Shown here piece after piece: positions 4,532 to 22,650 of a stretch of 57,580 nucleotides of DNA. A program made the position numbers and the translations under genes. Source of the DNA: Clostridiales bacterium (GTDB lineage Bacteria > Bacillota > Desulfotomaculia > Desulfotomaculales > VENG01). The stretch lies in the NCBI GenBank assembly GCA_016278505.1, contig JADQBQ010000008.1:1-57580 (forward strand), in the 5' to 3' direction. Position 1 is the first letter of the stretch. Every line of letters begins with the position of its first letter. Below the pieces are notes generated by a model. That model saw only the letters and a program-made list of their open reading frames with translations, was not told where the DNA came from and did not search any database.

Positions 4532-6389
4532 CTCCACGTTTGACACCCCAAATCCTGAAACCCGCATAAACACTGGACTTTTTAGGGCATAGCTATTGCG
4601 TTCCACAACATTTTTCCCTTATGGCCTGTTTTCTGCATATATATCCATCAATTGCATATGATTAGGAGGCCTTGTTCCGGTAGCTTTAAAGGCCGTATAT
4701 GCTTCTCCCTGTAATTCACTGTGGGTTAAATATGCCTGGTCTTCGAAACTCACCTTTACCGCTTGCATCTGGGCCAGATTTCGCATCACTTTACGGCAGC
4801 TAAGGCCTGGTTTAATATCCCGAAGCTTTTTCTGCAGGGTGGATTCCAGTACTAAGGCCAGATAGCATACCATGACATGCCCTCTTATGCGGCTGTCAGT
4901 CCAGTGATAGATAGGTCTTAAGTCGAGGCCTGATTTGAGTTCCCGGAATGCTCGTTCTACTTTCCAAAGGTCTTTGTATGCCAGTGCTACTTGTTCTGTG
5001 GGCAAATCAGAGTTAGTTAATAGAAGGTATTTACCGTCAAACCGTTCTTCCCGTTTCAGGGCTTCCCGGTTAATAGTTGCAGCCTTGCCGTTTACGTTAA
5101 GGTAGCGGCGATAGCCACGGTTGCCGACCAGGCTTTTGGTGCCGCCTTTTAAGAGCTTTTGCTCTAACTTTGCGACCATGCTTTTGCGGGCCAGGCGGTC
5201 TCTTTCTTTGGCCTCGGGGTTTAAACAGAGAATGAAGCGGCCCAATTCATCAATTCGGACTTCCTTGACTTTTAAGTTATCCTTTACTTTAAGATAACGG
5301 GCGTTCCGGCTTAGCATGTGGTCAATACCGGCGAGGCGGCGCATGCGCATGCCAACGATGTATTCCATGCCGCAATCTCTTAGCTCTTTTAAGATTTTTT
5401 GGCTGACCATGCCCCGGTCCCCCACCATGATGACTCTGGTGATGCTGAATCTTTTTCGAAGGTCATCCACTATGGACTTAAAGGTCTTGGTGTCGTTGGT
5501 GTTGCCGGGAAAGATTTGATGGGCTACCGGAATTCCTTCTTTGGTCATTAACACTCCAATGACTATTTGCAGCCGGTCGGGACGTTTATCTTTGGAGAAG
5601 ACGTATTTAGCTAAGTCTTCCGAGCCACTGCCTTCAAAGTAGGTGGATGTGGTGTCCCAGAATACCAGGTCTAATTCCATGTTGAAAAGGCTTCTTATGC
5701 GCTCAAACAGCTTTACTTCCAGCTTGTTTTTATGCTCTGCCAGGAAATCCAGGGCTTTATAAAAATGTTGTAGTTTTAATTGGTCGAATTCTGGCCGGTG
5801 TATGGTGTTTGTCCATTCACTAACGCCCAGTTTTGATTGAGGGTCACTCAAACGATTCAAAACCATGGCGAAGGCTGCCTCTTCAAGAGGAGATGTTTTT
5901 TCGGTGGACTTCAATAAAGTACGCAGCTGCGGACCTATAGAAAGTTCTTCCCATAGGCGGCGAAAGACCAGTGCCGGGCCCCATTGTTTGGTCCACTCTA
6001 TCTTGAGGTTTTCTGGGCGGCTTTTAATCCAGTTTTCCTTGGAAAACTTGCTGAGATGCTCTAAAAGGTTGTCGATCTCACCTTCTTGGAGTTGTTCCAG
6101 TCGTCCCAGGTTGGCAATTACTTTCTGCCGCACCTTACCGTTTTCGCGGTACCCTTGAACTATTTGAACATATGTCCGGACTGTGCCGTCTTTGTTTTTG
6201 TTGGTGGTTTTACGAATATACATAACACAACTATTTTACCATATTATTAAGCATAACAGCAGTAAATAACTGACAGACGTGACACAACACTTTTGGATAT
6301 TTTTGCTCACTTGAACCCGGAAGGCCTTGATTTTATTGCATTCTTGTTTTTGGAATAGGCAAAAATGGCGCCTGGCTGTCAAACTTGAG
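4532..6389 (-). mobile_element. IS1634-family insertion sequence, complete
   Basis: This element of about 1.86 kb carries one transposase gene. The right end, read inward, starts CTCAAGTTTGACAGCC. The left end starts CTCCACGTTTGACACC, giving imperfect terminal repeats that share GTTTGACA. The right end interrupts the small membrane-protein gene at 6390. A fragment of the same right end recurs at 11489-11594. I could not define a target duplication. Ends are inferred from the shared motif and from the gene disruption, so they may be off by a few bases. Confidence 0.75.
4619..6223 (-). CDS. IS1634-family DDE transposase
   Basis: The 534-residue transposase is full length for the family. The N-terminal part has YRENGKVRQKVIANLGRLE, common to IS1634/IS1549 proteins. 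The catalytic triad is visible as LVFWDTTSTYF (first Asp), VIMVGDRGMVS (second Asp) and LWKVERAFRELKSGL (Glu in the Y-R-E-K context). It acts in the cytoplasm on the terminal repeats at 4532 and 6389. The frame has no stops, so the copy may still be active. Transcription runs from the right end leftwards. The leader from 6224 to 6389 is the element's own non-coding end. Confidence 0.92.
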   Translation of the reverse strand: MYIRKTTNKNKDGTVRTYVQIVQGYRENGKVRQKVIANLGRLEQLQEGEIDNLLEHLSKFSKENWIKSRPENLKIEWTKQWGPALVFRRLWEELSIGPQLRTLLKSTEKTSPLEEAAFAMVLNRLSDPQSKLGVSEWTNTIHRPEFDQLKLQHFYKALDFLAEHKNKLEVKLFERIRSLFNMELDLVFWDTTSTYFEGSGSEDLAKYVFSKDKRPDRLQIVIGVLMTKEGIPVAHQIFPGNTNDTKTFKSIVDDLRKRFSITRVIMVGDRGMVSQKILKELRDCGMEYIVGMRMRRLAGIDHMLSRNARYLKVKDNLKVKEVRIDELGRFILCLNPEAKERDRLARKSMVAKLEQKLLKGGTKSLVGNRGYRRYLNVNGKAATINREALKREERFDGKYLLLTNSDLPTEQVALAYKDLWKVERAFRELKSGLDLRPIYHWTDSRIRGHVMVCYLALVLESTLQKKLRDIKPGLSCRKVMRNLAQMQAVKVSFEDQAYLTHSELQGEAYTAFKATGTRPPNHMQLMDIYAENRP

Positions 6390-8263: not shown

Positions 8264-11173
8264 AATGCTCTTTATTAATTCACTTGCGATATTGAAGCTC
8301 TCAAGTCTCATAATGCTTTCCTCTGCACTTCCATAGCTTAATAAATTTATACTTCCGTACCACACCAATTTTTGATCAATCACTGCAAATTTCTGGTGTA
8401 TATTTGACTTGAATATCACGGCAATTCCTGCATTTTTCAATGAATCCAATGTGCCTTGCAAAGCCTTTGCACCCCGGTCCTTGAAATCTGTGACCGGCCT
8501 GGTTACAACAATAACTTTTATGTTATTCCCTATAGCGACCTCTAAATTTTGCAGCATTTGCAAACTTCGTTTTTTAGTAACAAACGGGCTTACAATCAAG
8601 ATTTCTCTTGCAGCACTCACTATGTCATTAGAATACACCGGCAAGAAAGTGGTTTTGTTAAAAATAATATCAATTGGTTCCGATGGGACACTTTCACTTT
8701 TAGCTTTATACCCAATAGAGGCGTATCCGGAAAGCCGTTTATGATACATCCTATCTAACATTCTTACATGAATATCAACATAATCGTAGATTTGTACTTC
8801 ATCTTTATGGTGGCATAACCTATGTAACCTACCTGCATATTGCTGCAAAGTTCCTTTCCATGATATAGGCATGGCTAGGAATAAAGTATCAAGACGAGGT
8901 TCGTCAAAACCTTCTCCTATATATTTACCTGTCGCCACTATAGTTAATTGTTTATCGCTGGGAGCATCAGTAATAAGCTTCAAAGTTTCTCTCGTTGTTT
9001 TTGCTCCCATTCCTCCCATGAGAGGTATTACATCAGAAATTTTCTTACCCAGCAGTTTCACAAGAAGTTTCACATGCGCGGTTCTTTGAGTTAAAACAAT
9101 GCAGTTCCTTCCATCCTCATGGCACCTGATTACATCATCTATTATTAGCTGGTTGCGCATTTCGTTGACAATTATTTCGGAATAGAGGTCTTGTATAAAC
9201 ATGTCTTTTTCATCTTTGTCCATGGGAACTCTAAATGAGGTAAATCTTGGAATTATATAATGCTCGAAAGGTCTTTTTTCTGCTTGTTTTTTTGCATCAT
9301 CCCTATACCGAATAGGACCGCACTGCATGCTAATAATAGGATGGTGCCCGTCTTTTCTTGTTGGCGTCGCCGTCAATCCATAAACATATTTAGCATTTAC
9401 ATTTTTAAGCACTTGTTCAAATGTAAAAGATGAAACATGGTGGCATTCATCGACAATGACCATACCATAATCCTTAACACATTCCTTTACTTCACCCCTT
9501 CTATTCAGCGACTGCATTACCGCAATGTCAATAATGCCACTTAGATCTTTTTTCCCTGCTCCCAGTTGTCCGATAATGCTTTTGGACTTTTTTCTTCCCC
9601 TCTTTTTGCCCTTATCTTTATCCGGCAAGGCCTCATTGATAGTAAGAAATTCTCCTATCTTTTTTCTCCACTGTGAAGCTAAATTGACTTTATCAACTAT
9701 AATAAGTGTGTTTACCTTTCTTTGGGCGATTAGGTTTATTGCTACGACCGTTTTCCCAAATGCCGTTGTTCCACAAAGTATCCCGTTCTCGTATTTTAAT
9801 AGTTGATCGATAGCAGCAGGTTGTTCATCTCTGAGGTCACCGTTGAATTCGACATCAATAGTCTTGCCTCCATTGGTTTCATCAACGAAATGAAAACCCA
9901 CATCCTGATCTTTGAATACTTTTTTGAGGTCAGCCTCGCATCCTCGGGGCAGGCACAAATATTCTTCAATCTCATCGGAGCAGGATATAACTCTTGGTAA
10001 TTGTTTGACCGGTAACCGCAAGGCCTGAGCTTTATAGAACTCGGGGTTCTTGAAAGCCGCTAAACGTTTTAAATAATTTAGCACCTGGGGAGAGATCCCA
10101 GCTTTCGGAACGAATAGCATATTCGCCCTAACAACTGCGATATTTTGCGGGAAAGCATTCTGGGGTAATCTTATCTTCTTAACTTCCCACGGTTTTGGGC
10201 TTTCCTCATCCGTTCTCAACTCTCCCAGTTCATTTCCCCGGCATAGCTTTGCCGCTAATATTTCAACATCTTTTTCAGACAGTTTTCGGATAACAGAAAG
10301 ATATGCCCATTGATCGCTATACGGCTGTTTATTTGCATCGATAAATTCAGTATTATTATTCCTTCTTGCAGCCTTTTGTAACGGTAAGGCAATCAAGTTT
10401 CCCAAGCCACCCTTTGGCATAGTATCCTGATTAGGGAAAAGCCTATCATAGGAGTTAAATTTAATCTCATGCCTTTTCGCCATACAGCAAGTAAGCAGTG
10501 CACTACCAAATTTTCTCGCCAAAGTAGCTGGTAGAGAATTTTCAAAGAAAAACCACGCATGCGCCCCATTACCAGAACGAGAGCGTTCAACTGATAAAGG
10601 TATTTTAAATTCCGAACACACTACCCGGAGTACAGATATGTCTCTTTCCCATCCCTCACCGTCAAAGTCTATAGCTAGAAAATAACAGGTTTCATCAAGG
10701 CATAGGGGATATATTCCCGCAACAAAATTCTTACGCCCGCGCAAATGATCATCAATAACCTTTTCATCCAAAGCGTCATATGCTTTATTTTTACAATTGA
10801 AACAGGAGAACTTTGGCTTGTTGCATAATCCTGGCTTCCATTCATTCAAACAGCATGGTGAATACCCAGCCGTCCCTTTTTTGTGGTTTTCCCATCTTTT
10901 TGCGTAAACATCGTCGCGTCCTTTAAAAAGTGACATAAATAGTTGGATTTTTTCCTCGGGAGCTGACATATTGTTAATGGTTGCATAAAAAACTGGACGG
11001 ATTGCCTCTGGCGCATTTATTTCAGGTTTAAATCCGTCAATGGAAATCTCTTGAGGATTAATCGTAGGTACTTTACTGCAAAGTTGATCTTGCAACCTTT
11101 CTACTTCCTTTTTCAAATTTTGGTTTTCCACCAACAGTGCCTGATACTTTTCAAACAACTCATCGTAATTCAT
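8246..11173 (-). CDS. TOTE-type AEP primase / superfamily 2 helicase / phospholipase D fusion protein
   Basis: A cytoplasmic conflict protein of about 975 residues. A coiled coil (residues 1-35) precedes a zinc-type Cys cluster (CFNCKNKAY). Next is an archaeo-eukaryotic primase domain with YFLAIDFDGEGW (Asp-x-Asp metal site), RSGNGAHAWFFF (His motif) and the block YDRLFPNQD. The helicase follows: GTTAFGKTVV (Walker A), VIVDECHH, YGLTATPTR and QYAGRLHR. The C-terminus has one phospholipase D/HKD motif, HQKFAVID then WYGSINLL. This architecture matches proteins carrying the TOTE conflict system primase domain. The annotated long frame starts inside repeat copy C. ATG 11173, with AGAGGG seven bases upstream, is the better start. 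The last residues (GVRLE) and TAA come from repeat copy B, so the native C-terminus is slightly altered. Target and mechanism are unknown. Confidence 0.88.
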   Translation of the reverse strand: MNYDELFEKYQALLVENQNLKKEVERLQDQLCSKVPTINPQEISIDGFKPEINAPEAIRPVFYATINNMSAPEEKIQLFMSLFKGRDDVYAKRWENHKKGTAGYSPCCLNEWKPGLCNKPKFSCFNCKNKAYDALDEKVIDDHLRGRKNFVAGIYPLCLDETCYFLAIDFDGEGWERDISVLRVVCSEFKIPLSVERSRSGNGAHAWFFFENSLPATLARKFGSALLTCCMAKRHEIKFNSYDRLFPNQDTMPKGGLGNLIALPLQKAARRNNNTEFIDANKQPYSDQWAYLSVIRKLSEKDVEILAAKLCRGNELGELRTDEESPKPWEVKKIRLPQNAFPQNIAVVRANMLFVPKAGISPQVLNYLKRLAAFKNPEFYKAQALRLPVKQLPRVISCSDEIEEYLCLPRGCEADLKKVFKDQDVGFHFVDETNGGKTIDVEFNGDLRDEQPAAIDQLLKYENGILCGTTAFGKTVVAINLIAQRKVNTLIIVDKVNLASQWRKKIGEFLTINEALPDKDKGKKRGRKKSKSIIGQLGAGKKDLSGIIDIAVMQSLNRRGEVKECVKDYGMVIVDECHHVSSFTFEQVLKNVNAKYVYGLTATPTRKDGHHPIISMQCGPIRYRDDAKKQAEKRPFEHYIIPRFTSFRVPMDKDEKDMFIQDLYSEIIVNEMRNQLIIDDVIRCHEDGRNCIVLTQRTAHVKLLVKLLGKKISDVIPLMGGMGAKTTRETLKLITDAPSDKQLTIVATGKYIGEGFDEPRLDTLFLAMPISWKGTLQQYAGRLHRLCHHKDEVQIYDYVDIHVRMLDRMYHKRLSGYASIGYKAKSESVPSEPIDIIFNKTTFLPVYSNDIVSAAREILIVSPFVTKKRSLQMLQNLEVAIGNNIKVIVVTRPVTDFKDRGAKALQGTLDSLKNAGIAVIFKSNIHQKFAVIDQKLVWYGSINLLSYGSAEESIMRLESFNIASELIKSIGVRLE

Positions 11174-11661: not shown

Positions 11662-12384
11662 TTAACTTATTTTCTGGATATTCCCGGTATCAGTGTAAAC
11701 TTTCAATTCTACTTTTACACAATCATGACATTCATTTTCTTTATTTACTTCCAATACAGTACACTTATACCGAGCTCCTTCTTTGAGGATATTTGTCATA
11801 CTTTCACTGTAGTATCTTGGTAAGTATCCCACATGGTTTCCCTTTGAATCAATCATTCTAATTGCATTCTTATCGTATGGGTTTTTAGGGTCCAGCTCAA
11901 GTTCCAGTTTATCTCTAACCTCTAAGTGAAGGGCTTCATTGCAATCTTCACCTTCACAGCCAAGATAATATCTAACACCTGCAATATAAAAAATTCTTTT
12001 GATTTTACCGTTATGCCATTTTAATATCGGATCGATAAATTCCAGGCCATCAATTGGTAATCTTGCACCACTTCTTTTTAGCAGTGTATACTCATCATAA
12101 TTTTGAAGGCCGTATTTTGAAAGGATCTTTTCAATACCTCTTCTTTTCTTATCAGGCAACCTACTGGAAAAGGTGGGGAATAAGGTGTCACTTTTATAAA
12201 CTTTATTGATATCATCAAAAGGTATCAGTAATTCAAACCCTTTTTTAGTAGCTTCTTCTACCTCGTGCCCGTAAGAAAATTCATATTGGCTGTTTTTTGA
12301 TAACTGCCCAACAATATAATTTTGTCTAGTGTTAGGCTCTTTCCAAACCAAATAGATGTAATCTTTTCCATCCATTTTTGACAC
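11662..12384 (-). CDS. HipA-N-like / HIRAN domain protein
   Basis: A 240-residue protein starting with GTG 12384, preceded by AAGGAGG at ideal distance. The first 110 residues (IYLVWKEPNTRQNYIVGQLS, then LFPTFSSRLPDKKRRGIEKI and SGARLPIDGLEFIDP) resemble the N-terminal subdomain of HipA, which in HipBST systems is a separate protein, HipS. The C-terminal 110 residues are a HIRAN domain: YIAGVRYYL, LDPKNPYDKNAIRMID and GNHVGYLPRYYSESM. HIRAN domains bind DNA ends or 3' overhangs in HLTF/Rad5 and also occur alone in bacteria. The gene starts 15 bp after the HipA-like kinase gene and ends at a terminator, so both form one operon. No HipB-type helix-turn-helix gene is present. It may neutralise or target the kinase; this is inference. 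Confidence 0.78.
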   Translation of the reverse strand: MSKMDGKDYIYLVWKEPNTRQNYIVGQLSKNSQYEFSYGHEVEEATKKGFELLIPFDDINKVYKSDTLFPTFSSRLPDKKRRGIEKILSKYGLQNYDEYTLLKRSGARLPIDGLEFIDPILKWHNGKIKRIFYIAGVRYYLGCEGEDCNEALHLEVRDKLELELDPKNPYDKNAIRMIDSKGNHVGYLPRYYSESMTNILKEGARYKCTVLEVNKENECHDCVKVELKVYTDTGNIQKIS

Positions 12385-12399
12385 GTCTTTTTCCTCCTT

Positions 12400-13269
12400 T
12401 CACATATTAAATTGCCTCGCCATTAATCTAACCTTCTCAAGCAAAAACCTTTTAATCAAAATCATTCTTTTTTCGCTCATAATGGTACCATATTCACCTA
12501 GTATACTATCTATATTATGCACGTTAATATTATCTTTTATTGTTTTAGCAATTCCAATCACATCATTATAATGGTTGACTCGCAAAAATTGAAGCACTTC
12601 TATATGTTTAGGTTCCTTTTTTAATTTTTTATTTACTCTTATCCTGGATCTTGACTTTGTATCAACCAGTGATTGAAACCGAAGTCTATCTTTTCCTAGG
12701 TAGCTATCTAGTTGTGATTCTAGTATATAACAACAAAGTGACGACCCATTGTCATATAATGGGCAAAGCTTAAGATTTTTATCCTTTTGCAAAACTGCCC
12801 AGTTGCTTTGATGCCTATCAGTATTACCTATAAGAAAATCGAATATGGGAATGGCAAAAAAATCCTTTTGGAGTCGATATTCTTCAAGAGACCGTAATAT
12901 CATTTCCAATGAATAGTATTCATCTCTTTCACTATCGTACAGGATTTGCTCATTGTAATGAGAATAATACTTGTTAATTAGTTGGATTCCCTCTATTAAA
13001 TTTTCGTCTTGCCTATTTATTCTATAGCTTAGGGAACCCAATCTTGAATTATATTCCCCTAGTTCCACTCTCATGCATTTAACATCGATTAATTTAGCGA
13101 TATCCGCTGCAATTTTTTCTGATAAGTGCTCTGTTGTGTACTCCGTTTTGGGGAATTTAAATAACCCAATATCTCCATTAACAGGATTGACCAGCCAAAT
13201 TTTTTCGCTGCGGCCACTCCCTTCGGAAGCTCCTTCATACTCTTTCCAGGAACTAAAATCTTTAATCAT
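12400..13269 (-). CDS. HipA-like Ser/Thr kinase (HipT-type core)
   Basis: A 289-residue protein containing the kinase core of HipA toxins without the usual N-terminal subdomain. FDFLIGNTDRHQSNWAVL (Asp151) is the catalytic loop. LCPLYDNGSSLCC (Asp173) is the metal-binding motif. LFKFPK around residue 38 may supply the ATP-binding lysine, and SEGSGRSEK may be the flexible Gly/Ser loop. E. coli HipA phosphorylates glutamyl-tRNA synthetase and HipT phosphorylates tryptophanyl-tRNA synthetase; the substrate here is unknown. The ribosome site before ATG 13269 is weak (GGTGGG, somewhat far). It is the first gene of a two-gene operon with a strong promoter at 13324-13352. Confidence 0.82.
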   Translation of the reverse strand: MIKDFSSWKEYEGASEGSGRSEKIWLVNPVNGDIGLFKFPKTEYTTEHLSEKIAADIAKLIDVKCMRVELGEYNSRLGSLSYRINRQDENLIEGIQLINKYYSHYNEQILYDSERDEYYSLEMILRSLEEYRLQKDFFAIPIFDFLIGNTDRHQSNWAVLQKDKNLKLCPLYDNGSSLCCYILESQLDSYLGKDRLRFQSLVDTKSRSRIRVNKKLKKEPKHIEVLQFLRVNHYNDVIGIAKTIKDNINVHNIDSILGEYGTIMSEKRMILIKRFLLEKVRLMARQFNM

Positions 13270-14111: not shown

Positions 14112-14831
14112 CTATTCTTTTGTGTACATTCTTTCGGGTAGCTCACTCCAAAATTGAATTATTGCTTCGCAATATTTTTCAAATTCATTGTCGTCTACGT
14201 TCAAAACCATCTCATTTAAGGTTGTCTTATATAAATCCAATAGGTCATAATCTCCAAAGTCAGATTTAAAGAAATCAGCTCTTAGATGTTTCAATTGGGT
14301 CGCTGACCATCCATCCCCATGCTTGATAACATTCGCCAACAATCTAAGCTCACTTATTTTTCCCCAACACAAAAGTTTTTCTAAGTCTTGATCAAACGTT
14401 AAGAATTCATCCTTAATATCCTCAATTCCTCTTGTGCAAAATTTTTTAAAAGGAACTTTATTCCCTTTTTTGTCAATAAATTCATGAGTCCTAGTCACTT
14501 CTTCATAAATAAACTTTCTAACTTGTTGCTCCCAAAATTGATATAGGGTTGATATCCACATTAACTTAGTATTGTATTTGATTAATACCATACCTTCATA
14601 GTGTTCCAACCCGGCTTCCCACGCAGTCTCAGCAAAATCAGCTGGGTCATTATAATCTGGATGAAAGTTTTTTCCCATTTCATGATAACGCTCTTCAGCA
14701 ATTGCCTCAGCTTCTTTATCAATATTATTAAACATCGGATTTATTTTATTAGAATATGTATCTTTAAACAATTCTATTGGTCTCTGAAATCTCTCACGGA
14801 GTGAATCATATAAATATAGCTGAGCTCTCAT
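14112..14831 (-). CDS. Hypothetical HEPN-like protein in defence island
   Basis: A protein of 239 residues, mostly helical. ATG 14831 is chosen because AAAGGAG stands five bases upstream; the longer frame from ATG 14858 has no good ribosome site and its extra codons contain this one. The motif ISELRLLANVIKHGDGWS resembles the Arg-x-x-x-Asn-x-x-Lys-His pattern of HEPN/abortive-infection proteins, and WISTLYQFWEQQVRKFIYEE fits the first helix of that fold. Such domains are often RNases triggered by phage. No nucleotidyltransferase partner is present. Placement between the HipA/HIRAN operon and the type I restriction operon fits a defence role, but the family is not certain. Confidence 0.6.
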   Translation of the reverse strand: MRAQLYLYDSLRERFQRPIELFKDTYSNKINPMFNNIDKEAEAIAEERYHEMGKNFHPDYNDPADFAETAWEAGLEHYEGMVLIKYNTKLMWISTLYQFWEQQVRKFIYEEVTRTHEFIDKKGNKVPFKKFCTRGIEDIKDEFLTFDQDLEKLLCWGKISELRLLANVIKHGDGWSATQLKHLRADFFKSDFGDYDLLDLYKTTLNEMVLNVDDNEFEKYCEAIIQFWSELPERMYTKE

Positions 14832-14869
14832 ACGATCTCCTTTCTTATATTTTGCCATTTAATTTCACA

Positions 14870-15115: not shown

Positions 15116-18100
15116 TTATCTACTCTCATTCTCGCACATTAATTTAGTTTGCTCCATTACAATATCCACTGCTTGAGGGGTCTTATCCGGTGGATAACCA
15201 TATTTCTTGAGCAGCCTTTTAATAGTCATCTTCATTCTTGCTTGAACACTTTCTCGGATTGCCCAGTCTACGCTGATATTGTTCTTAATAGCTGTAGTTA
15301 GGTCCCTTGCAATCTGCATAAGAATTTCATCGCCCATGACTTCTCTAGCCGATTCATTTTCTGCCAGCGCATCGTAGAACGCCAATTCATCTGAAGTGAG
15401 ACCTGTATGCTCTCCGCGTTTTTCCGCCTCGCTGATCTCCTTAGCAAGCTCAATTAACTCCATGATCACCTGGGTGGTTTCAATGGCTCTGTTCTGATAC
15501 TTCTTAATAGAGGCCTCCAACAGTTCTGAAAATTTCTTAGACTGTACAAGATTGCGCCGGGAGAAGGTCTTGATGTTGCCTTTGAGCAATCTATTTAATA
15601 ATTCCACTGCAAGGTTCCTCTGCTTCATCCCCCTCACTTCTTCAAGGAACTCATCAGAAAGAATAGCAATATTGGGTTTAGAAAGACCCACTGATCCCAA
15701 AATATCTACCACTTCGTTAGAGGAGATAGCCTTAGAAATCAGCTGGTTAAGTTCATTGTCAAGCTGGGTTGGGGTTTTATTTTTCTTATCATCGCTAAGC
15801 ATTTTCACAAGGCTTGCTTTGACGGCTTTATGGAAACCAACTTCTACATTAAGACTTTCAGCAATATCTGTTGTGGCGCATAGGGAATAAGCCCTTGCCA
15901 TTTCGGTTACCAGCTTAATATAATCATTTTTTCTATCTTCACGAAGCCCGATGATATAATCCATTGTTTCCACAATAGCCTGCATTTTCTCGCTGGGCTT
16001 ACCGGTGAAAAATTTACTATAGTCGTGGCCATGCAGCAATTCTTTTATTAGGTCATGCTTTTCTAAAAGAATCTGAGACGCAATTTCTGTATCTACGCCA
16101 GCCGTCTTCTTATCACTTTCAGTATATTTGGAAAGCGCTTCTTTTAAATTTTCCGCAATACCGATATAATCAACAACCAGACCGCCCTGTTTATCTTTAA
16201 ACACCCTATTTACCCTGGCGATAGCCTGCATCAGGTTATGGCCGCTCATTGGCTTATCGATATACATGGTATGCATACTGGGCACATCAAAACCAGTAAG
16301 CCACATATCACGAACAATAACTAGCTTTAGTTCATCGTTTTTATCTTTCATCCGTTTAGCCAGAGTTTCTCTGTTAGCCTTGGTGCCGATAAACGGCTGC
16401 CAGTCTGCCGGGTCGGAGGAACTGCCTGTCATTACCACCTTAATCTTGCCTGACATTAAGTCATCGCTGTGCCATTCCGGGCGCAGGCTAACAATTTCCT
16501 TATAAAGATCAATGGCAATTCTTCGACTCATGGCAACGATCATTGCCTTACCGCCTTCGTTTTCCTGTGCCTGTTCCCGCTTCTCAAAATGGTCTACAAT
16601 ATCTCTAGCAATTTGTTTTATTCTTTGCTCCGCACCAACTATAGCCTCAATTCTGGCCCATTTGCTTTTAAGCTTTTCTTTTTGACTGTGTTCCTGGTAT
16701 TCAGTAATCTCTTCATACTCGGTATCAACCTTAGGTTTCATTTCCTCCGGCAGCTCCAGCTTGGCTATTCTGCTCTCATAGAAAATCTTAACGGTTGTGC
16801 CGTCTTCCACCGCCCTGGTCATATCATAAACGTCTATATAGTCACCAAAAACTGCTCTCGTATTTTTATCGGTTAGTTCAACCGGAGTTCCGGTAAAGCC
16901 AATGTATGAGGCATTGGGCAGGCTGTCACGCATGTACTTAGCATAACCATATTTAATATCCGCCTCAGTTTTGCCTTTGACCACTTCCGCTCCAAAACCA
17001 TACTGGCTGCGATGTGCTTCATCTGCAATGACAATCACATTTTTCCTATCTGTAAGCACCTTATTGGCCTCATAGTCAGCGCTGTTCTCAGCTACCTTAT
17101 CCAAGGCTTCATAAGATTTAGCACCCTCTTTATTCTCATTAGAAATAGGAGCAAACTTATGGATAGTTGTAAAAATGATACCTCCGCTGGTGCGGTTATT
17201 TAGCAGTTCTCTTAAGTGGGCTCTGTCCTCTGCTTGTACGGGGGTAGTCCTTAATAATTCCTTGCTTTTAAGAAAAGTATTAAACAGTTGGTCGTCCAAA
17301 TCATTTCTATCCGTAATAACCACAATGGTTGGGTTTTCAAGCTCTTCACTGATAACGAGCTTTCCGGCATAGAATACCATAGACAGGCTTTTACCACTGC
17401 CCTGGGTATGCCAAATAACACCTATTCGCCTATCTCCCTGTTCCATTGTGGATCGTTCGCTGCTTTCCACTGCCTTATTAACTGCATGGTACTGGTGATA
17501 CCCGGCCAGAATTTTTATTGTTTCTTTTCCATCACTTTGGAACAATATAAAGTACTTGATAATATCAAGGAAACGGTCATGTTGAAACATGCCCTTAATC
17601 AAAACTTCAAGTTGGGGAATAGAAAGTGGTGCTACATCATCACCCTCAATGGTACGCCAGGACAGAAACCAATCTTCATCGGCAGTAAGCGTACCTGCCC
17701 TGGCGTTGATTCCATCACTGGTGACCATAAAAGAATTATAAGTAAAGAGGGAAGGGATGGTCATTTTATATGTTTGCAGTTGATTATAGGCGTCAGTGAT
17801 GTCAACGTTTTCATCGCTGGCGCTCTTCAGTTCAATAACCACCAGGGGAATACCATTAACAAACACAACGACATCAGGACGCTTTTCTACACCGTGTTCT
17901 ACAATAGTAAACTGGTTTGCTACCATAAACTCATTGTTTTGTGGCTTGGCAAAATCAATGGCATAAGCCTTCTCTGTCCTGTAACCGCCATCGGGCTGTT
18001 TCACTTGCACATCTATGCCGTCAGTAATCATCTTTTGAAAAGCCTTATTATTCATGATAAGGCTCGGACTTTGTGGGATTATAATCTGCCTGAAGGTATC

Positions 18101-18310
18101 TTTTATGGCGTCAACTGGCAGTTTCAGGTTTATCCTGGTTAAAGCTTCTTTTAACCGCTCTGTTAGAATAACATCACTGTAATCCTCACGTTCCGGGTAC
18201 TCCCCATCGGGTGCAATATCAGGTGCAAAGACCACCTCGTAGCCTAATTCTTCAAACCACTCCAGTGTGGCTGCTTCTAATTGGGATTCATGAAAATTAT
18301 TACTGGCCAT
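15116..18310 (-). CDS. hsdR: Type I restriction enzyme, R subunit
   Basis: A 1064-residue motor and nuclease subunit of normal length. The PD-(D/E)xK nuclease is near the N-terminus: [20 protein letters not shown] with Asp146, Glu160 and Lys162. The translocase follows, with [10 protein letters not shown] (Walker A, about 304-308), [12 protein letters not shown] (about 430) and [11 protein letters not shown] helical C-terminal region binds the methylase core. With HsdM and HsdS it would form the R2M2S1 complex that translocates DNA and cleaves far from unmethylated sites. ATG 18310 directly follows the TAA of hsdS with zero spacing, and its ribosome site GAGGAGGTG lies inside the end of hsdS, so translation is coupled. 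It is the last gene of the operon. Confidence 0.96.
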
Positions 18311-19513
18311 TTATTGCACCTCCTCGATAGGCACTCGGATTTTTCCTGACATGAGTTTTGGGATAAGGGAATCGCGAATGGCAATTAGAGTTCTATTTTG
18401 GATAAAATTATTCTCGATAATATCATCTAATTTTCCAACAATATTTTGAAACTGAAACATTATTTTCTCAGATGGAATAATTATTTGCATATTATTCAAT
18501 GTTCCCTTGTTTACTGAGCCAAACACTGTACCCTCTCCGTTGTATACATTAAATCTACTCTTAAAATCTAATAATTGATAAAGCAAATAAGAATTACAAT
18601 TATTCTTGCTTCTTAATGATGCTAAACCACGACCAATGCAACAATCGTCACTAGCTACATTAATATCTCCAACAGGAGCCCTTACACTCATTAAAATATC
18701 ACCTTTTTTTGCCACCCTCTTGGGTTCTGTTGTGTACAATCTTATTGTTGGATAACGCTTACCAAAATCCGTTCTGCCTTGATAAAATATTGTTCCAGTA
18801 TTGTTTTCATTATAGCTACTACCCTTTGGGGATTGTCCCATTGTAATATTTGCAATATCCCCCAAAGTTCCAATTCTCCACTCTTTAGGGATCATACCTA
18901 ACTCACTATCCTCAAACTCCCCATCCTGGAAAGGCTCAAAGTCCACAAACCAGCTTTTGAATATCGCCTGGGCCATTTCCTCAATGGTTTTATTTTTCAT
19001 GTTGTTGAGTTCCACTTTGTTATCAAGGCAAGAAAGTGTATCCGCTATGGCTTTTTGTTCAGAGATGGGTGGTAAATCGATTGATGTATCCCGAACCATA
19101 TCAAGGGTTAGATTTTTCATTGTGCTGTCATAAGCACCATGAAGAAGTTTCTTTCTAATATGAAGCAACCTATAAAACAGATAATAAATATCAATACCTT
19201 GTAAATCATCAAAAACTTGCCATCCGTCATGTATGCACGCTTTTATACCCATAAACTTTGGGAGACCGGCTGTTCCACTGTTTGACAATATCAGCGAACC
19301 TGGATTTACAACTACACTTTTATCTACGCCATTCATTTTAATATACTGATTTGTTTTTTCAATAAACCTAGAATTACTTTCTGTGGCATCCGCAATTTTC
19401 ACCCACGGCATTCCACTATTTGACAGATAATCTTTAATTGGTCTTGGGGATGAACCTCGTCTAATTTTACAAATGTCACCCAACTTAACCTCTTTCCAAT
19501 CACTAATATTCAT
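18311..19513 (-). CDS. hsdS: Type I restriction enzyme, S (specificity) subunit
   Basis: About 400 residues with the usual two target-recognition domains and two conserved helical spacers. TRD1 begins [20 protein letters not shown]. The first spacer includes [20 protein letters not shown] and [14 protein letters not shown]2 starts [20 protein letters not shown], and the C-terminal spacer ends [13 protein letters not shown]. It sets the bipartite DNA sequence recognised by the complex; the sequence cannot be read from the protein by eye. ATG 19513 is preferred to the upstream TTG 19519. It overlaps hsdM by 11 bp. Confidence 0.94.
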
Positions 19514-20984
19514 ACCCAATTGCCCCCAATTGCTGCTTAATTTCTTCCTCTAGCTCATGGGATTTAGCAAACATTTCTGCCAGCTCTGCCGTCAGCCGAG
19601 CCATCTTTTCCTCGAAGGGTTCCCCGTCATCTTCTAACTCTTCAAACCCAACATATCTTCCCGGGGTTAGAATATACTCATACCCTCTCACTTCTTCAAG
19701 CGATACGGATTTACAAAAACCTTGCACATCCTCGTATTCTTCCTTACCGTCACGCCAGGTGTGGAAGGTATCATAGATTTTCGAGATTTCCTCATCGGAA
19801 AGCTCCCTATGCTTACGAGTGACCATTGTTCCCATCTTACGGGCATCTATAAAAAGGATTTTATCTTTTCTGTTTTCCCGCTTCTTGGCAAGGAACCACA
19901 GACAAACTGGAATGGTTACATTGTAAAAAAGATTAGGCGGCATGGTAACAATGCAGTCCACTAGTCCTGCTTCGATAATGTTTTTTCTAATTTCGGCTTC
20001 CGCCCTGGTAGATGTACTCATAGAACCGTTGGCCAAAACAAAGCCTGCAACACCCTTAGGCGATAACTTACTAATTATATGCTCAATCCAAGCATAATTA
20101 GCGTTGTTAGCCGGGGGAATGCCATACTTCCAACGGGCGTCATCCTGAATCAAAGTATAATCACTCACGTTAAATGGGGGATTAGCTAAGATATAATCTG
20201 CCCTTAGGTTTTTATGCAGGTCATTACCGAAGGTGTCTGCATCTCTTCCACCCAAATTTGCATCAAGCCCACGGATGGCCAGGTTCATTTTACAAAGTTT
20301 CCAGGTAGATGCGGTATATTCCTGGCCATAGATATAAATATCATCTTTGCGGCCTTGGTGCTCTTCTACAAATCTAGCTGACTGCACAAACATTCCACCG
20401 GATCCGCAACACGGGTCATAAACTCTTCCTTTATATGGCTCAATCATGCCGACCAGTAATTTTACGATAGTAGGTGGCGTATAAAATTCACCCTGGCTGG
20501 AACCAAATTTGCCCAAGAAATATTCATAAACCCGGCCTAAAACATCCTGGGCTTTAGCCTCCTTATCCCCCAGGTTAAAAGAAAACAAATCGATTAGTTC
20601 CCCAAGCTTGGATTTATCCAATTCCGGCCTGGCATAGTTTTTAGGAAGCACACCTTTTAAACTTTTATTTTCCCGTTCAATAGCCATCATAGCATCATCA
20701 ATAATTTGACCGATGGTGTTTTGCTTGGCACTCTTTTTGATAAAATCCCATCTGGCGCTTGGTGGTACGAAGAAAACATTATCCTCTATGTATGCATCTC
20801 TGTCTTCCTCAAAGCCTTCTCCCTCAGCCACCAGCTCATTGTATTTTTCTTCGAAGCTGTCGGAGATGTATTTCAAGAATATAAGTCCAAGGACCACATC
20901 CTTATATTCTGAGGGTTGAATATTACCTCTTAACTTATCCGCCATTTCCCATAACTTGTTTTCAAACTCTAAATTTACCGCCAT
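19503..20984 (-). CDS. hsdM: Type I modification methylase, M subunit
   Basis: About 493 residues from ATG 20984, with GGGGGC six bases upstream; an extended frame to 21038 would overlap the preceding gene and lacks a ribosome site. N-terminal helical domain: [20 protein letters not shown] then [16 protein letters not shown]. The catalytic domain has motif [15 protein letters not shown] and motif [11 protein letters not shown], as in N6-adenine methylases. It transfers methyl groups from S-adenosylmethionine to adenine in the site read by HsdS, protecting host DNA. The operon order is fusion gene, hsdM, hsdS, hsdR. Confidence 0.96.
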
Positions 20985-20995
20985 AGTATTGCCCC

Positions 20996-22579
20996 CTATA
21001 TTAAATGGTTGTAGATACTGTCCTTTACCTGTAACCACCGGTTTTCTGCCTTTTTGATGGTATCCTTATAAATACTTAGTTCCTCATTATATTTATCGAT
21101 CATTTCCTGCTGCTTGCTTATAGGTAGTAATGGTATCTCCATTTCCATAATATCTGAACTATTGATATTCATAATGGTAGTACCCCTCTGGAAGCTCTTA
21201 ATGATAGCTATCCCTACAGGACTTTCAAAAAAGATTTTGATATACTCGCCTTTTACCTTCTCCTTTGGTCTAATCACTATCAAGTTGGCAGAAGCAATAA
21301 TTGTTTTATCTTGAGCTTTAAATACGGCAGATTTTATGGCAGTTCCCCTGCAGGAAAGGACTACATCGCCGGTATACAACTCATACCGTTTTATTTTCCG
21401 TTCCTCTTCGTCGATAGTATCCATTTTCTCATAATTGATTTCGCCATACTCGATATTGGAAATATTGAGTACAGAAATGCTGCCAACGGAAATGTCCTTT
21501 TTTAGAATGGATTTTCCTCTGAATACCTCCGCCACATCCTTAAGCTTCACTTTTTCATGCTTCGAGCTTTTAAACCGCTGAATATTCTCATTATCATCTG
21601 CCAAGAGAAGTTCAATGCGCCAATCCTCATGAGATAAAAACCCTTTGGTTGGTATTTCCTTTTTATCTTCTATCTCAAACTCTCTTTTGCTAAATTCAAA
21701 TGTTCCGATTTTTATGTTTTCCCTTGGTTTTGTTGTGATTGAGAATAAATAGGTTTTAATGGCCGTTAGCGGTCTAAAAGTTCCTTCGGGTAGAATATAA
21801 ATGCTTTCCACATAAAAGTGTTCTGTAATATATCTCCTTAGTTTCATATACCCCGCACCGGCAAAAGTAATCTTCGCTGGAACGATAATATCTAAAATGC
21901 CCTTATCATCCAGGTGTTCAATCATATTTTGTATAGCTATACCATCACTATCTCTTGTTAAAAACTTTTCACCTAACTCTTCCGGTCTATATCCAAACGC
22001 AGGTAGGGAGTATATATAATCATATTTTTCATCCTGTAAACATCCAGTGTAAATAGACTCAAATCGTATTTTCACATTTTTATATCCACCAAAAGCTAAC
22101 TGCAGCAATATGTGCATTGGTTTAAGTTGAGTTGTTAATGTAAATTTGGGATCTTGAAATCGGTTAATAATTTCTTTGAGCCCAGATAAATGTTTTTCTG
22201 CTTCCGTGATAAGAATCGTATTTGGTTGCAAATACCTTATTCTATCACTGATATATGCGCTTAGGTATCTTGGTGAAATGATTGTACCGAGACGATCGTT
22301 TTTATATATTTCAAGGGTGAAATCAATAAGGTCAATATCCTTTAACTCCTCAAAAATAGCCCAAAAGTCATCTCGGTCAGCCGGGAAGAAGCCCAATTCA
22401 TCTTCAGTGACTTTTTTCATAAATTGAAAAAGCTTCTCTTTATTCTTGGTGGTGATTGAAGCCTCTTCAAGTTTCTTTAACGTCATTTTTACACGGAGCA
22501 TTTCATTCAATAGCTGTTCCCTGGACGTTAGCTGCCTTTGGTACAAGACATTCAAGGCTAAATCTATATTTCTGTTCAC
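20996..22579 (-). CDS. Degenerate N6-methylase-like / HsdS target-recognition fusion
   Basis: A 527-residue protein starting with GTG 22579 after AAGGAGG. Residues 1-335 look like a type I methylase (helical N-terminus, [55 protein letters not shown]), but the catalytic motif NPPF is replaced by YIYSLPAFG (about 188-196), and motif I lacks the glycine-rich DPxCGSG. Residues 341-527 are one HsdS-type recognition domain ([20 protein letters not shown], then [20 protein letters not shown]). It is the first gene of the type I operon, 11 bp before hsdM. It is probably catalytically dead but DNA binding, so a regulator, an alternative specificity module or an anti-host-methylation factor are possible. 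The function is not established. Confidence 0.75.
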
Positions 22580-22615
22580 ATTAGGCCTCCTTCCTGTATT
22601 TATTTGCCTAATTTA

Positions 22616-22644
22616 TTATATTTATCATTATTTAGTATGTCAAT
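22616..22644 (-). promoter_or_regulatory. Consensus sigma-A promoter of the type I RM operon
   Basis: On the minus strand TTGACA (22639-22644) and TATAAT (22616-22621) are separated by 17 bp, a perfect consensus. The first start codon is GTG 22579. Confidence 0.9.
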
Positions 22645-22650
22645 ACTAAA
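22633..22650. promoter_or_regulatory. Palindrome over the -35 box of the RM operon
   Basis: TTAGTAT and ATACTAA form a perfect 7-bp inverted repeat around four bases, centred on the -35 box. This is a good position for a repressor that delays restriction. No C-protein gene is in the window; the methylase-like fusion is one candidate binder. Confidence 0.6.

Follow-up and report, generated by a model that had tools for sequence, protein, structure and literature searches.

For protein X, encoded by the first gene of a type I restriction operon in the window (the whole stretch of 57,580 nucleotides that was analysed), the predicted function is autoregulation of its own operon, most likely as a repressor, through a palindrome in the promoter; on the sequence evidence, the probability of this reading is put at about 0.7. 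We infer binding of X to the palindrome, in dimeric form and with repression as the outcome. Among the roles offered by the first-pass annotation was that of a DNA-binding operon regulator, and this option is now strongly supported by the co-occurrence of X and its putative operator and by half-sites that change with the X subfamily.

Operon, promoter and domains of X

X is encoded on the minus strand at 20996..22579 (527 aa, GTG start) and is a fusion of a pseudo-HsdM and a half-HsdS. It is followed on the same strand by hsdM (19503..20984), which starts 11 bp past X and has an intact NPPF and motif I, hsdS (18311..19519), with two TRDs in Pfam, and hsdR (15116..18310), identified by family match, each of them full length. 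The promoter of X consists of the -35 hexamer TTGACA (22638..22643, minus strand) and the -10 hexamer TATAAT (22615..22620, minus strand) with a 17-bp spacer, a consensus sigma-A promoter with a 12/12 hexamer match. The earlier placement of X as first gene of the hsd operon behind a perfect sigma-A promoter thus holds.

Further downstream, a 248-aa ORF immediately after hsdR (14112-14858, minus strand) gave no family match above the cut-off. A two-gene pair of HIRAN/HipA-N and HipA-C-like proteins (11662-13269, minus strand) matches the PADLOC candidate system PDC-M03 B and A (E 7e-108 and 1e-128) and is likely part of a defence island.

X comprises a degenerate gamma-MTase core (residues ~1-335), a TRD (340-500) and a long C-terminal helix (~485-527). 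In Pfam, the core gave a partial N6_Mtase match covering the C-terminal half of the family (residues 211-295, E 9e-7). In the alignment with HsdM, motif IV reads SLPAFG against NPPF, in the region (21979..22020, minus strand) that stands where D-(x)4-NPPF is expected, and the motif I block, the SAM-binding glycine loop, is deleted in X and its short clade. The description of X as a 527-residue HsdM-like protein with SLPAFG for NPPF and no SAM glycine motif was therefore confirmed by Pfam and alignment. A structure comparison with HsdM, proposed along with that description, agreed with it: the central part of the AlphaFold model has a gamma-MTase fold, with Z 18 to the type I M subunit 3lkd_B over 228 residues.

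The C-terminus had been called a half-HsdS recognition domain, and the TRD with its helix (20999..21562, minus strand; residues ~340-527) bears this out with matches to Methylase_S and Esub1. The Methylase_S match is a single stretch (residues 340-495, E 1.4e-12), which corresponds to one TRD and not two. The top PDB sequence match is Esub1 (8vsq/8vsr, E 3e-34, residues 332-523), followed by EcoKI HsdS, and Esub1 also came first in the structural comparison of the TRD model (Z 12). The full-length model is poor (6 sequences, mean pLDDT 51; TRD-only model, pLDDT 65), and for this reason no claim is made on the geometry of an X dimer. No HTH family was found in X by Pfam and NCBIfam scans, and no nuclease family was among the Pfam matches over the 527 aa.

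The palindrome upstream of X and its family-wide rule

The proposed operator TTTAGTATTGACATACTAAA (22631..22650) contains AGTA-N6-TACT, in which the N6 is the -35 hexamer, and is built of two perfect 8-bp arms around TGAC. A palindrome overlapping the promoter had been reported before; it is real and covers the -35, and its extent, 22650-22631, is slightly longer than the 22633-22650 given then. In pattern searches, TAGTAT-N4-ATACTA occurred once in the 3.9-Mb genome, and TTTAGTAT-N4-ATACTAAA, with 16 specified bases, occurred eight times in 20 whole genomes, every time immediately upstream of X, and not once in 10 genomes picked for X-less relatives of the window HsdM. The palindrome also precedes X in relatives with different upstream genes. 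Being unique in the genome and recurrent upstream of X in relatives, it is not due to chance.

The spacer is TTGACA in the window, in eight close relatives (L021, L022, L023, L024, L003, L061, L062, L063) and in L077. The operator lies off the -35 hexamer in L064, L065, L075 and L080, ~10-20 bp upstream where a clear -35 was called. In L064, L065 and L080 the palindrome centres are changed (TTAAGA, TTATAA, TTATAG) and the arm cores are retained in both arms, indicating that the operator is not conserved merely for containing a promoter element. In L075, whose X is 36% identical, the operator is GGTA-N6-TACC, with both arms altered together. Upstream of X in L064 (~6197-6253) and L063 (~11116-11147), the palindrome arms are extended to ~20 and ~16 bp with perfect or near-perfect symmetry, which is far beyond what a TRD pair should need.

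The 150 bp upstream of X were scanned for NGTW-Ns-WACN palindromes at spacings 0 to 14. NGTW-N6-WACN was present in 30 of 42 X loci (14/15 close, 16/27 distant), every other spacing gave zero or one distant locus, and the N6 form was found in 0/28 X-less related hsdM operons. The narrower RGTW form gave the same N6 peak in close loci, against an average of 0.2-0.3 loci and a maximum of 3 in shuffles. Because the half-site pattern was picked after the first examples had been viewed, the evidential weight lies on the control sets and the spacing scan. The other 12 loci carry no N6 palindrome within 150 bp, some of these X genes being behind another gene; L066 has one N7 version, and L122, with intact NPPF, has none. 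In L025, a Lactococcus plasmid with a distant X, two TTAGTAT-N5-ATACTAA palindromes (AGTA-N7-TACT) were observed ~140 bp apart around the promoter, within ~210 bp upstream of 7398; the AGTA half-site is kept and the spacing differs.

The half-site varies with the X subfamily. AGTA belongs to the short clade, GGTT (GGTT-N6-AACC) was found in L028, L071, L074, L076, L079, L081, L124 and L128, TGTT (TGTT-N6-AACA) in L123, L125, L126 and L127, and TGTA-N6-TACA represents the half-site of another X subfamily. Long-form TRDs that share a half-site are more alike, also after correction for the N-domain (p ~0.02), the correlation being modest. Most X promoters match the consensus at 11-12 of 12 positions. 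The operator embeds the -10, with TATAAT as spacer, in L074, L076 and the phage-borne L081; other operators abut the -35 by 1-3 bp or sit downstream of the -10; and two operators surround the promoter in L028, L043, L076, L081 and L123. The EcoKI site AAC N6 GTGC likewise has a fixed N6 between its half-sites (PMC3874165), so the proposed operator resembles type I sites such as this one in layout, with a fixed N6 between inverted half-sites.

Spread, selection and exchange of HsdS under constant X

Orthologues of X at 70-80% identity were found in Desulfoscipio, Pelotomaculum, Syntrophomonas (partial), Desulfosporosinus contigs and other genomes, and one at 57% identity on an IMG/VR contig. 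Distant members (550-645 aa, 20-30% identity) likewise stand first in hsdMSR operons, those on Lactococcus, Lactobacillus and Salimicrobium plasmids among them. Among 398 genomes sampled from the phylum (Bacillota), at least 21, ~5%, carry X, a lower bound obtained with three candidates scored per genome. Searches in the small orders around G104 and G420 gave almost no further members, and the phage record collection yielded no homologue of X. On the IMG/VR contig L081, a long-form X (287-2038) has phage genes as neighbours (HNH endonuclease, terminase-like) and carries two GGTT-N6-AACC operators, of which one embeds the -10. The stretch is 8.4 kb long, begins just upstream of X and contains no hsd gene; this phage-borne X could silence a host operon.

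In the short clade, hsdM directly follows X in 13 of the 14 loci with downstream DNA, two of them with a truncated hsdM, so that the association with hsdMSR, on which the first-pass annotation had made a functional role depend, is conserved. The X-to-hsdM gap is 11-14 bp in seven of eight close loci measured and 57 bp in L066. The exception among the 14 is L062, where hsdM and hsdS were not detected; X and the operator are intact there, only an hsdR fragment is left, and X may outlive its operon, judged from this locus. No hsdMSR genes were detected beside X in L026, L028, L077, L078 and L081, and no other gene was seen to be conserved beside X operons.

All but one of the 42 family members have lost the asparagine of NPPF; it was found in 0/30 members of one alignment and in no short-clade member. 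Long forms, once aligned, proved too divergent for pattern scanning. The five HsdM proteins of X operons that were aligned alongside all keep NPP[FY]. The SLPA-type loss is thus not simple decay, which intact NPPF in close homologues, a test set beforehand, would have suggested. The sole exception, L122 (1486-3321), has the intact NPPF and lacks an N6 palindrome; no hsdM was recognised in the short stretch that follows, and L122 is possibly an active, ancestor-like form. The reading frames of X are open and of near-constant length across divergent genomes. dN/dS was 0.13 for the X N-domain, 0.05 for the X TRD and 0.03 for HsdM in the WIN-L061 pair; dS is saturated in most pairs, and the ratios come from this one pair for the N-domain and from two for the TRD. 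Judged by these sequence comparisons, X is under purifying selection, with catalysis lost and not regained.

Across six operons, mean pairwise identity was 62% for the X N-domain, 80% for the X TRD, 88% for HsdM and 89% for HsdR, and in the same six operons 24% for HsdS TRD1 and 36% for HsdS TRD2. By this measure, HsdS specificity is exchanged freely under a constant X. With its TRDs swapped while the X TRD stays at 80%, HsdS cannot be the reader of the conserved sites in X promoters, and the target of X must be constant.

Proposed mechanism, alternatives and known systems

X would descend from an M-S fusion in which catalysis was lost and a single TRD retained. Through their C-terminal helices, two copies would pair in the manner of two half-HsdS units and so set two TRDs in inverted orientation on the bipartite palindrome AGTA-N6-TACT. 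Since the N6 spacer coincides with the -35 hexamer, an X dimer on the site would keep RNA polymerase out, and X would be a negative-feedback repressor of X-hsdM-hsdS-hsdR, its own gene included. A possible benefit would be a steady low expression that survives changes of HsdS, together with a burst of expression when the operon enters an X-less cell.

X might instead bind the palindrome mainly as an activator or as a concentration-dependent dual switch, like type II C proteins. The position of the operator 10-19 bp upstream of the -35 in L064, L075 and L080 also suits an activator and speaks against the repressor reading, and the paired operators around the promoter in five loci likewise favour an activator or dual switch. 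Repression is preferred because most promoters are already of consensus strength and because operators frequently overlie the -35 or the -10, or lie directly next to the -35, a placement that fits occlusion; an activating role is considered unlikely.

It is highly improbable that X, with the active HsdM or with HsdS, forms a second methylation specificity for which the promoter palindrome is a methylation site and epigenetic switch. In favour stand the complete TRD and the helix of X, the WAC of the half-sites as a plausible m6A context and the co-transcription of hsdM with X, but the M-like domain of X already occupies the docking place of HsdM, and GGTT half-sites have no adenine on the type I-methylated strand in the 5' half (rule: PMC3874165). 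The TRD of X does not diversify (80% identity against 24-36% for HsdS TRDs) and the extended site is found once in the genome, which also disfavours the extra specificity factor suggested earlier.

Equally hard to sustain is the reading in which the palindrome is recognised by another regulator and X has a different task, for instance as an assembly subunit or decoy. The pairing of X with the palindrome is drawn from sequence, which leaves room for such a regulator, but no further gene was seen to be conserved beside X operons, the palindrome and X co-occur and the half-site shifts with the X subfamily. The suggested decoy against anti-restriction proteins found no specific support and does not predict an operator. 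That X is a decaying remnant of a second M-S gene, as the lost catalytic motifs might suggest, is rejected as having next to no chance, the motif loss being family-wide under purifying selection, with open frames of near-constant length, low dN/dS and a conserved position and operator.

Most accounts of how type I restriction is controlled deal with the protein level, as in ClpXP-dependent restriction alleviation and in assembly. If X is an autoregulatory repressor, the enzyme's methylase and specificity subunits would have been reused to make its regulator. This would be a different kind of control, in which the operon could change HsdS freely without breaking its control, because the TRD of X stays fixed. 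The common annotation 'N-6 DNA methylase' would then turn into a regulator, natural TRD-operator pairs would make TRD recognition readable without methylome data, and the binding of Esub1 by the phage protein Prx would gain a hypothetical explanation open to testing. Chances are about even that X founds a widespread repressor class in which the DNA reader is a type I TRD, the operators follow type I grammar with an unread N6 spacer that is often a promoter hexamer, and phages exploit such proteins, as the X of L081 with its matching operators and the binding of Esub1 by Prx would exemplify.

Among known proteins, Esub1, which we take to be of streptococcal origin by way of Prx (paratox), has a TRD homologous to that of X. 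Its entries are titled 'Crystal structure of Esub1' (PDB 8vsq) and 'Co-crystal structure of Prx with Esub1' (8vsr); the crystallised chain starts at approximately the domain boundary of X, and the likeness rests on the TRD part, which is all that the crystal contains. A scan of viral contigs found no Esub1 DNA. With HsdM and HsdS of EcoKI, EcoR124I and PacII, X shares the gamma-MTase core and an HsdS-type TRD with dimerisation helix; unlike them, it is a single fused chain without NPPF or SAM loop, with one TRD and a constant recognition domain. Type IIG/IIL/IIB fused enzymes have a nuclease, an active methylase and a TRD, whereas X has no nuclease match and has lost the catalytic motifs.

Among regulators, type II C proteins control RM operons from operators at their own promoter and are functionally analogous to X, but they are small HTH proteins, whereas X has no HTH match and would use its TRD. 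The regulatory methylases SsoII, Ecl18kI and EcoRII repress the RM promoter at an overlapping operator (PMC3874152, PMC12707154), a methylase-derived repressor role like that proposed for X; these enzymes retain methylase activity and carry an extra HTH at the N-terminus, whereas X is catalytically degenerate and would repress through its TRD. RptR has recently been reported as a transcriptional repressor, and its gene lies upstream of a type I RM system (PMC12255303). It is a type I-linked repressor, as X is proposed to be, but it is small, has a different fold and recognises directly repeated TAGCTA. No description of a regulatory role for X-type proteins was found in the literature searched. 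With no HTH and no intact catalytic motifs, X has the defining feature of none of the C proteins, the SsoII/Ecl18kI methylases or RptR; the trait it shares with RM autoregulators is a conserved putative operator at its own promoter.
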